A stretch of DNA of 64,000 nt from Bacteroidota bacterium (lineage in GTDB: Bacteria > Bacteroidota > Bacteroidia > Flavobacteriales > Flavobacteriaceae). This document shows positions 56,308 through 59,440 of the stretch, one piece after another. The notes under the pieces were generated by a model. It was not told the DNA's origin, did no database searches, and saw nothing but the letters and a program-made list of their open reading frames with translations. Numbering within the stretch: position 1 is the first letter of the stretch; the number at the start of each line of letters is the position of its first letter. The stretch spans positions 1 to 64,000 of the forward strand of contig JAJRRO010000039.1 of the NCBI GenBank assembly GCA_024279425.1. Direction: 5' to 3'. The translations under genes were made by a program, and so were the position numbers.

Positions 56308-56970
56308 ATGATTTATCGAATAATCTTTGTTCTTACTCTGCTTGTTATCTGGTCGATACCTACTATGGCCCAAGAGAATAACAATAAAATTCAGGTCATG
56401 GGAACCGTTACCGATGTGAGCGGTAAACCGCTAAAAGGTGTTATGGTATTTGTAGATTCAATCAAGACCAAGTCGAAAACCAATAAGAAGGGAATATATA
56501 GAATTAAGTTAAGTCCTGATACAAAGATTTTAGCCGTTTATTCTCTGGACTTAGGGATCTTGAGTATGAATTATACAGGGCAAACAAACATCGGTTTTAT
56601 GTATACTCGTGAAAGTGGGCCATTGTCCAAGGAAAATCTAGCGGAAATAAGTCTTACGGTTTATCATGAACCTGTTGGGGATACGAGTTGGTAAACGGAT
56701 TATAGTAGCATATTGGAGCTACTGGATCTGCGCTTTTACAATGTTAGGGCTACCAATGGTAAAATTAAAATAGGCAAGGGTCCCAATCAATTTAGTGGAG
56801 ATAGTGATCCTTTGGTTTTGGTGAATAACCAAAGTATGAACGTTAATGTTTTATCTACAATTTCTACAAGTGATGTAAAATTGATACAAGTTATCAATAG
56901 AGGTAGTGAAGCTGCATTGTACGGAGGACTTAAGGCGGCAAATGGAGTTATTCTAATTACTTTAAAATAG
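56308..56970 (+). pseudogene. Carboxypeptidase-regulatory/TonB-plug protein without barrel, split by an in-frame stop
   Basis: The frame opens with a signal peptide (FVLTLLVIWSIPTMAQ) and a CarboxypepD_reg-like domain (VMGTVTDVSGKPLKGVMVFVD). It meets a TAA at 56692-56694 after VYHEPVGDTSW, then continues in the same frame (TDYSSILELLDLRFYNV ... PLVLVNNQSMNVNVLSTI ... EAALYGGLKAANGVILITLK) to the stop at 56970. The second half is a plug domain matching the end of the intact paralogue at 57284. No base shift is needed; one nonsense codon breaks the gene. The promoter is intact. Either it is a recent pseudogene, or the first half is made alone. Confidence 0.8.
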
Positions 56971-57283: not shown

Positions 57284-57940
57284 ATGATTTATAAAGTTTT
57301 CCTTGCATTTACCCTTGTTTTAATTTGTTTAACTTCAGTTACAGCCCAGAAAAAAAGTTCAGAAAAAATTCAAGTGACAGGAACGGTAACCGACACTAAT
57401 GGCATACCAATTAAAAGGGCGGTTATTTATGTCGATTCTGTTAAAACTTTTAGCAGAACTAACAAAAAGGGGTATTATAAAGTTCGGATAAGACCGGAAA
57501 CCAAACATTTTATGATCTTTTCTCCGAAACATGGCATGTACAGCATTGCATATGATGGAAGTACGGAGTTGAACTTTCAATTTAAAAATAGCGTTGACCA
57601 TTTAACAGAGGCAAATTTGGCCGATTTGGGTTTTACTATAGTGGCCCCGCGTAAGGGAACTATTAATCCTTCACGATTTAAGGAATATAAGACAATTTTT
57701 GATTTGATTCAAGAAATGTTTACAGGAATTGAAGTTAAAGGGGAAAGGATTGTTGTTAGAGGAGTATCGTCTTTTTCCCAAAATCCTCCATTATTTGTTG
57801 TTGATGGATCTTATGTACCCAATATTGCTTTTGTTAATCCAGTCGGGGTAAAATCTATTGAGCTTATAAAAGATGGTACTGCAGCCCTTTATGGAGCCAG
57901 GGGAGCTAATGGAGTCATCGTTATTAATTTAATAAAGTGA
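57284..57940 (+). CDS. Secreted carboxypeptidase-regulatory plus TonB-plug protein without a barrel
   Basis: The 218-residue protein has a signal peptide (FLAFTLVLICLTSVTAQ). A CarboxypepD_reg-like domain lies at about residues 28-100 (VTGTVTDTNGIPIKRAVIYVD, TNKKGYYKVRI). A linker and a plug domain fill about 130-218 (FDLIQEMFTGIEV, VVRGVSSFSQNPPLFVVDGSY, SIELIKDGTAALYGARGANG, VIVINLIK). It ends exactly where a SusC-type receptor would start its beta barrel. No TonB box of the DEVVV type is visible between the domains. Function unknown; it may bind a partner barrel or a TonB-dependent system. A paralogue lies upstream. Confidence 0.85.
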   Translation: MIYKVFLAFTLVLICLTSVTAQKKSSEKIQVTGTVTDTNGIPIKRAVIYVDSVKTFSRTNKKGYYKVRIRPETKHFMIFSPKHGMYSIAYDGSTELNFQFKNSVDHLTEANLADLGFTIVAPRKGTINPSRFKEYKTIFDLIQEMFTGIEVKGERIVVRGVSSFSQNPPLFVVDGSYVPNIAFVNPVGVKSIELIKDGTAALYGARGANGVIVINLIK

Positions 57941-57946
57941 TTTTAA

Positions 57947-59440
57947 TTACATTCCAGTACTCAAGATACCATAAAAGGCTTTAATGCCATAAGCAATCTG
58001 ACCAATCCTTAAGTTCTCATTGGGGCTATGCTGGTTATTATCAGGATTTACCATGGGAACAATAAAAGCGGGAATCTTTAATTCATTGATAAATGGTGCG
58101 ATTGGCACGGTACCTCCCATAGTTCTAATTTGAACCACATCTTCCCCAAAAGTATCATTTAAGCGCTTCACCAGAAATTTTCCATAGGAGCTGTCCAAAT
58201 CCGTTCTAAAGGCATTGGTTACGGATCCTTCAGTAACGGTTATTATTTTATCATGGGCCATTCGTTCTTCCTTGGTTGGATTTTTATCTGTAATATAAAA
58301 CCCTTGATTCCGGATATGCTTTTTTACTAGGTTCTTCAACCTATTTCCGTCCGATTCTGGCACCAAACGAATATCAATTTCAGCCGTCGCACTTTCAGGG
58401 ATAATAGTTCTAGCTTTTTTACCGATCCATCCAGAACCTAAACCTCTAATATTCAATGAAGGGTATTGTAAAGCTTCTTGATAAAATCTTCCAACTTTTT
58501 CAGGGGTTTTGATGGCCAAGTTTTGGTTAATTGTATTTGGGTCGTCTGGTACGCTCTTCAGAATAGCAAGAGTTGGCTCGTCCAGCGTTACCCCGTCATA
58601 ATAACCATCAATTAAAACCTTGCCATTGGCATCTTTCATGCTTGCCAAAACTTGTGCCAGTTGAAAACCCGGGTTAGGAGCGTAATTTCCGTAGTGACCA
58701 CTATGTTGGGGTTTTATTGGGCCATGGGTTGTTAATGATAGGGTAGTTATGCCCCTGCATCCGTAGATAACGGTTGGTTTGCCAGACGCATGCACTGGGC
58801 CGTCATTAATGACCAAAAAATCTGCCTTTAATAGATTTCGATATTCCTTTACTGCTTTGGGCAATGGTCTACTGCTCTTTTCCTCTTCGCTATCCAAGAT
58901 CACCTTGACATTGAAGGGTATTGTCACACCATTCTTCTTTAGGAGGTCTATGGTGTTCAATAGCATGACAATAGGACCTTTGTCATCAGATGTAGAACGA
59001 CCAAATAATCGCCAATCATAGTTGAGGTTATTCACTAAACTATCAAAAGGTTGGGTTTTCCACGTATCATCATCTTTTGATTTTAGAGTTACCGTATACG
59101 GATTGGGTTGATCCCATTTTGTTGGGTCAACAGATTGGCCATCCAAGTGCATATAAAAAAGAATGGTAGGTTTGCTGTCTTCCATAGGTAAGGCCGCAAA
59201 AAACAAGGATTCGCCATCAGTTGGTAAAACTGTTGAATTGAATCCGCGCTCACTGAATTTTTTGGTCAACCATGTAATATTTCGATTAATGTCAGCATGT
59301 TCCAAAGCGTCATTTGGGATGGAAACGAAATCCCTCAGTTCGTTTATGGCAAGACTTACCTGAGATTTTATTTGGGCATCGTCTTGGGCAAAAGCAATAC
59401 TTGAAGCAAATGTGACTAAAACAGCAAATAGTTTTCTCAT
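57947..59440 (-). CDS. Secreted M20 family metallopeptidase (dipeptidase-like)
   Basis: The 497-residue protein has a signal peptide (KLFAVLVTFASSIAFAQ). M20 metal ligands are FYMHLDGQSVDP, RSTSDDKGPIVML (Asp), LDSEEEKSSRP (the catalytic and ligand Glu pair), VINDGP and the C-terminal NQHSPNEN (His). A lid/dimer domain lies in the middle (SATAEIDIRLVPESDGNRL). It probably hydrolyses small peptides in the periplasm. It ends 6 bases from the convergent plug gene and lies 40 bases downstream of the small membrane protein, so read-through from trp is possible. Confidence 0.9.
   Translation of the reverse strand: MRKLFAVLVTFASSIAFAQDDAQIKSQVSLAINELRDFVSIPNDALEHADINRNITWLTKKFSERGFNSTVLPTDGESLFFAALPMEDSKPTILFYMHLDGQSVDPTKWDQPNPYTVTLKSKDDDTWKTQPFDSLVNNLNYDWRLFGRSTSDDKGPIVMLLNTIDLLKKNGVTIPFNVKVILDSEEEKSSRPLPKAVKEYRNLLKADFLVINDGPVHASGKPTVIYGCRGITTLSLTTHGPIKPQHSGHYGNYAPNPGFQLAQVLASMKDANGKVLIDGYYDGVTLDEPTLAILKSVPDDPNTINQNLAIKTPEKVGRFYQEALQYPSLNIRGLGSGWIGKKARTIIPESATAEIDIRLVPESDGNRLKNLVKKHIRNQGFYITDKNPTKEERMAHDKIITVTEGSVTNAFRTDLDSSYGKFLVKRLNDTFGEDVVQIRTMGGTVPIAPFINELKIPAFIVPMVNPDNNQHSPNENLRIGQIAYGIKAFYGILSTGM

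Follow-up and report, generated by a model that had tools for sequence, protein, structure and literature searches.

The plug domain of a TonB-dependent receptor is normally discussed as the cork of its own barrel. In the SusC/RagA receptors (Bt1763, Bt3090), a signal peptide, an N-terminal extension (NTE) and a plug with a ...YG.RGANGV.I... ending follow one another in that order. Here we describe a protein that keeps this order and stops at the plug, encoded at 57284-57940 of a 64,000-nucleotide stretch of DNA (the window; positions 1 to 64,000 of contig JAJRRO010000039.1, assembly GCA_024279425.1, a Bacteroidota bacterium of the Flavobacteriaceae), together with the family of solitary NTE-plug proteins to which it belongs. 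Unlike SusC/RagA receptors, the solitary protein has neither a barrel nor a TonB box, and its link between NTE and plug is shorter and variable.

Several described systems bear on what such a protein might do. The TonB box of Bt1763 is required for growth on levan, SusC barrels eject their plug in vitro, and the NTE is stated to be of unknown function (PMC7782687, cited here from part of its text, as are the other papers below). When the FpvAI plug is produced as a soluble protein separate from its barrel, it restores the receptor in trans (PMC10994204). In the type 9 translocon of Flavobacterium johnsoniae, a separate Plug protein seals quiescent SprA (PMC10994853), and the BAM complex (β-barrel assembly machinery) of F. 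johnsoniae carries BamP, a deletable, Flavobacteriaceae-restricted protein with periplasmic domains, a loop of which enters the BamA barrel (PMC12611786).

The solitary protein resembles split FpvAI in being a plug produced separately from any barrel (PMC10994204), but the split receptor is man-made and has its own plugless barrel, whereas the solitary protein is natural and no plugless PF00593 barrel was found for it. With the type 9 Plug it would share the role of a separate sealing protein (PMC10994853); no SprA-bound Plug chain appeared among Protein Data Bank (PDB) sequence matches (E up to 1), and no direct comparison was made. As for BamP, the C-terminal domain of the solitary protein is a plug; no PDB chain of the BamP complex matched at E up to 1, the BamP sequence itself not being compared. 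One BAM-complex chain, 9n2d_E, which we guess to be BamP, aligned to the NTE fold with Z 7.2, within the range of a common fold.

The portion available to us of a review (PMC11658791) contains nothing on split plugs. In open-licence PubMed Central text we found no paper describing a stand-alone NTE-plug family. Such proteins probably carry plug-domain names in databases. The parts are already known, and the novelty lies in recognition of the family and its function, not in its existence.

A receptor front half that stops at the plug

The open reading frame (ORF) at 57284-57940 encodes what a SusC-type receptor begins with (a signal-peptide-like start, an NTE and a plug), and a stop codon follows. 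The features of the locus are:

57284-57940, forward strand: solitary NTE-plug protein; ATG start, intact ORF, 218 amino acids plus stop
57284-57346, forward strand: putative signal-peptide-like N terminus, residues 1-21, ahead of invariant Q22
57362-57601, forward strand: NTE (transthyretin-like) domain, residues 27-106; VIA-align Z 11.2 to SusC NTE 9hfj, CarboxypepD_reg match below cut-off
57602-57661, forward strand: linker, residues 107-126, at the place of the SusC TonB box, which is lost here
57662-57937, forward strand: plug domain, residues 127-218, end of protein; Pfam Plug match, VIA-align match to 6z9a_B
56308-56970, forward strand: tandem paralogue of the same architecture, with an in-frame TAA at 56692-56694
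57947-59440, reverse strand: convergent gene, M20-type peptidase (labelled by eye, family name not scanned)

Pfam Plug (PF07715) matched residues 152-211 above its cut-off (E 5.1e-9) and was covered to its final position (107/107). The stop codon comes directly after the plug and the end of the opposite-strand gene lies 6 bases on, so no barrel remnant follows, in agreement with the preliminary description of this DNA, which had called the product a plug protein without a barrel. The CarboxypepD_reg match at residues 30-73 (E 9.7e-7) reached 29.5 bits against a curated cut-off of 32.3, and the window copy fell below the curated cut-offs of both PF13715 and PF13620; the SusC/RagA model TIGR04056 of NCBIfam gave E 1.6e-19 and 69.8 bits, far below its cut-off of 368.25. 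The protein would begin with a signal peptide, judging by a modelled hydrophobic helix at residues 2-19 and by the conservation of A21 (71%) and Q22 (38/38) among solitary members. Across the 140 contigs of the same genome there are 38 places with a Plug match over the cut-off, and only this ORF is an open frame of fewer than 643 residues; the other 37 lie in frames of at least 643. These 38 do not include the stop-bearing paralogue.

A family of stand-alone NTE-plug proteins

We define the solitary NTE-plug family as proteins of about 210-235 amino acids that end at the plug and group apart from SusC, and the 57284-57940 protein is one of them. Searching 397 sampled genomes of the Flavobacteriaceae, we found an intact small homologue in at least 31, its own included, with open frames of 212-274 amino acids. 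This count, taken by reading the result table with seven candidates scored per genome, is a lower bound. At E 1e-18, 38 of the 397 genomes matched: 31 with an intact small ORF, one (G427) with a degraded copy only and six with receptors only (open frames 1004-1140). Carriers include Maribacter, Eudoraea, Cerina and a Flavobacteriaceae bin, with cultured strains of Maribacter flavus and Eudoraea adriatica among those that have an intact copy.

The preliminary description had allowed that close homologues might carry the barrel downstream, making this a truncated receptor, and the opposite was found. The nearest relative, G002, encodes an 86% identical orthologue as a small ORF, and in the 397 genomes all listed matches at E <1e-20 are small ORFs (two with interrupting stops); full-length receptors first appear at E 5.3e-20. 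Of 99 genomes (its own and relatives), six gave matches with E no higher than 1e-20; where uninterrupted, these had open frames of 221-238 residues, and the remainder were the stop-bearing paralogue and a single G002 fragment. Farther afield, a class-wide profile search (395 genomes, E 1e-36, seven candidates scored per genome) gave one clear solitary member (G180) beyond the window's two copies, as well as a match within an open frame of 304 residues in G686. A genus-level profile search was dominated by SusC receptor matches, and a 25% match came from a metagenome-assembled genome of the Rikenellaceae (L063).

We aligned 38 solitary sequences, from 30 of the 31 carrier genomes (alignment A3; G295 was left out). 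Plug matched 37 of the 38, and PF13715 and PF13620 each matched 32 (E up to 0.001 throughout). Members end 6-12 residues beyond the GV of the plug motif; the tail of L092 (6) was read from its printed sequence, the script having cut it elsewhere.

Loss of the TonB box and retention of the plug core

The core motif of the TonB box is present in all 23 SusC sequences collected and in one of the 38 solitary members (GFVV in L022), and is absent from the window protein; a VVVxGYG-like motif occurs in 21/23 and 0/38, respectively. These counts follow a loosening of the pattern, an earlier, stricter one having given 15/23 versus 0/38. In 18 aligned SusC rows, the VVV columns hold V at frequencies of 0.89, 0.94 and 1.0. 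In conservation, the linker ranks last of the regions in solitary members and first in SusC (mean entropy 2.71 versus 1.38), values that are roughly comparable only, given the different size and diversity of the two sets.

The plug core, in contrast to the linker, is retained (mean entropy in solitary members 1.77 for the plug and 2.15 for the NTE). Y203, G204, G210 and V211 are identical in all 38 members, position 159 is R or K in 36 and position 196 is K or R in 36. The counterparts of R159 and K196 in well-studied receptors presumably pair with barrel glutamates; a literature search on such barrel contacts found nothing. The residue after K196 (D197) is D in 14/18 SusC sequences and G in 27/38 solitary ones, and the mean isoelectric point of the plug is 6.8 in solitary members versus 4.8 in SusC. 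The solitary NTE lacks the TDFDG-type loop of SusC and has residues of its own, D51 (0.92), K54 (0.76), S80 (0.84), G84 (0.95) and F98.

Phylogeny, selection and decay

In a tree of the 38 solitary and 18 SusC NTE-plug sequences, one branch splits the two groups with a support of 99 in the Shimodaira–Hasegawa-like approximate likelihood ratio test (SH-aLRT). The 18 are those remaining of 23 collected SusC N termini after five were dropped by the motif cut, and the solitary rows were picked by likeness to the window protein. The plug half alone gave the same split at SH-aLRT 99 on a short alignment with three long rows, and the NTE half alone supported it at only 75. A second, deeply separated subgroup of the solitary family consists of L092 and L126, which are long-branched on the plug half. 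The family probably arose once; since the root was not inferred, the trees make a single origin likely rather than proven. The preliminary description had guessed at a small family from the tandem copy, and the single branch and the 31 carrier genomes bear this out.

The window gene is constrained. Against the G002 orthologue, the ratio of nonsynonymous to synonymous substitution rates (dN/dS) was 0.13-0.16 by two methods, with 0.09-0.10 in the NTE and 0.17-0.24 in the plug. The computations show that there is such a solitary family, that its proteins terminate with the plug and have been kept by selection, and that they have lost the TonB box and retain the plug core. Synonymous divergence (dS) from G002 was about 0.5 in the plug gene versus 0.05-0.24 in three flanking genes tested, which fits allele exchange at the locus.

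The tandem copy was also noticed in the preliminary description. It is a real paralogue (37% identity), intact in G002 (L026) and interrupted here by the in-frame TAA, which leaves the 57284-57940 copy as the only intact one in its genome. The TAA may reflect recent decay or an assembly error; the paralogue pair, comparing the TAA-bearing window copy with the intact G002 copy, has a dN/dS of 0.30-0.38. In G427 (L094), another decay is in progress, with the syntenic plug gene degraded to a 146-amino-acid remnant.

Structural models

An AlphaFold2 model of the 218-residue protein (38 alignment rows) had a mean predicted local distance difference test score (pLDDT) of 86.8 and a predicted template modelling score (pTM) of 0.51, meaning that most of the domain structure is confident but not the placement of the domains relative to each other. 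On this model it is plausible that the protein folds on its own, as the preliminary description had supposed in proposing a stable plug made alone. With VIA-align, the plug (residues 127-218) matched the Bt1763 plug 6z9a_B over 91 residues (Z 9.3, root-mean-square deviation 2.6) and residues 27-106 matched the SusC NTE 9hfj, as listed above; a profile search matched PDB chain 8aa4_A at E 1e-30. Foldseek returned mostly NTE-like folds and listed no type 9 secretion Plug, which excludes nothing.

Genomic context

The site of the window gene, between ppc and the peptidase gene, accounts for nine intact loci and one degraded locus (L094), with an inserted stretch in G002 and small ORFs ahead of the peptidase gene in L061. 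Other sites in the Flavobacteriaceae sample are each common to two to five genomes, and no neighbour was common to all positions among 41 loci compared, four of which duplicate places already included. One pair of genes (clusters 21 and 22) flanks five loci. A CarboxypepD-like gene (by eye; cluster 18) lies 41 and 57 bases downstream at two Eudoraea loci; such distances were taken over 31 loci plus the window's two copies. No SusD lipoprotein gene was recognised by eye in the flanking ORFs read, the flanks not having been scanned with a SusD model. A search for a Bacteroidota-type promoter motif found none for the window copy and two full matches across all members examined.

Nine congeners have an orthologue of the peptidase (80-85% identity) that no plug gene adjoins, only chance-level matches having been obtained (E 3.4, 6.5). 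Because other genera carry the gene at the ppc-peptidase site, we infer that the solitary plug gene is accessory and was lost in these congeners.

Individual loci add further observations. In G002 (L084 9288-13597), histidine-kinase-like and LytTR-like regulator genes (by eye) lie between the intact plug gene and a plug fragment that adjoins the peptidase gene, the end of which is also duplicated. The window copy is 92% identical to the fragment region versus 85% to the intact G002 copy, as if the intact copy had come from another lineage. In the congener G006 (L126), a solitary plug of the second subgroup stands between a penicillin-amidase gene and a same-strand CarboxypepD-plug gene, which is receptor-like and runs off the end of the stretch.

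Possible roles

We tentatively favour, short of an even chance, a plug, soluble in the periplasm and beyond the pull of TonB, that would dock in trans into a barrel of the outer membrane. We take the family to descend from the N-terminal part (NTE plus plug) of a TonB-dependent receptor of the SusC type; its members would be exported to the periplasm and fold alone, and the conserved plug face may dock from below into a SusC-type or other barrel, sealing or tuning it. The protein would then be a static or spare plug, or an inhibitor, instead of part of a transporter. Loss of the TonB box alongside a retained plug core suggests that pulling has ceased, as without the box TonB would not draw the plug out. 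Docking in trans is preferred by analogy, because of the precedents of the FpvAI plug supplied in trans, SusC plug ejection, the SprA Plug and BamP. The fuller version, a natural TonB-free split plug acting at SusC-type or other pores as spare seal, gate or shield from bacteriocins and phages, seems to us rather unlikely.

A number of observations weigh against docking in trans. Part of the FpvAI plug alone failed in a split receptor (PMC10994204). In the same genome, no plugless partner was found among the 19 PF00593 barrels, 18 of which have a Plug match in the same frame and the last of which (C126) shows by eye a TonB-box-like motif and a plug-length stretch; PF00593 misses some barrels (19 found versus 38 Plug places), and other barrel models were not covered. 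Nor did a conserved neighbouring barrel appear at the loci, different lineages having different adjoining genes. Seven of the nine congeners show ppc with the plug site empty (in the other two ppc is not shown), and this absence at the syntenic site makes the gene dispensable. D174, which is D in 18/18 SusC sequences, is N in 17/38 solitary members, and the plug residues may be conserved for folding only. On the other side, in favour of docking, stand the basic residues R159 and K196 and a comparison of models: the NTE-plug part cut out of a SusC receptor of the same genome (23 rows) reached pLDDT 79.3, its residues 102-116, around the TonB box, falling below 50. The higher score of the solitary protein suggests adaptation to standing alone, a contrast that is weak because the alignment depths differ (23 versus 38 rows).

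The main rival, close behind and quite possible if short of probable, is that NTE and plug together now serve as a general module for binding or scaffolding in the periplasm, unconnected with any barrel lumen and with a ligand or a protein as the bound partner. NTE and/or plug domains also occur in proteins of the same genome that are free of barrel-model matches: a DUF4139/DUF4140 protein holds a CarboxypepD-plug insert (L119 991-3036), and an MG2 protein holds a plug (L128 1097-3604). The solitary-specific NTE residues D51, K54, S80 and G84 hint at a new role, and the neighbourhoods of the main family, read by eye, are not receptor loci. Yet the plug core is at least as conserved as the NTE, and the conserved basic residues presumably contact a barrel. 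Separately, the TonB_C protein encoded at L116, next to an M56-like gene (by eye), carries a CarboxypepD domain at its C terminus.

An inhibitor or decoy, which would compete with a receptor's own plug, for instance to close receptors to bacteriocins or phages, or occupy the assembly machinery, strikes us as improbable. Loss of the TonB box would yield an unpullable plug, patchy spread (31/397) and the empty congener site fit an accessory trait, and flavobacteria do use distinct proteins to block barrels, with Plug on SprA (PMC10994853) and BamP in BamA (PMC12611786); but no defence genes were recognised by eye at the seven loci read, and no PDB chain of either complex was among the sequence matches noted above. 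Last, a truncated SusC receptor or decaying functionless gene is highly improbable here and refuted for the family: genes do decay in places (the paralogue's stop, the G427 remnant), but small homologues stand in 30 other genomes of the Flavobacteriaceae, the 38 aligned form one group, members stop soon after the plug motif, and the 86% orthologue, the 397-genome matches, the tree split and the dN/dS of the window copy exclude truncation.

A family of barrel-less plugs under selection offers a way to ask whether plugs act in trans in nature. It also bears on how SusC pores may be resealed after the plug exits, and on what the NTE is for.
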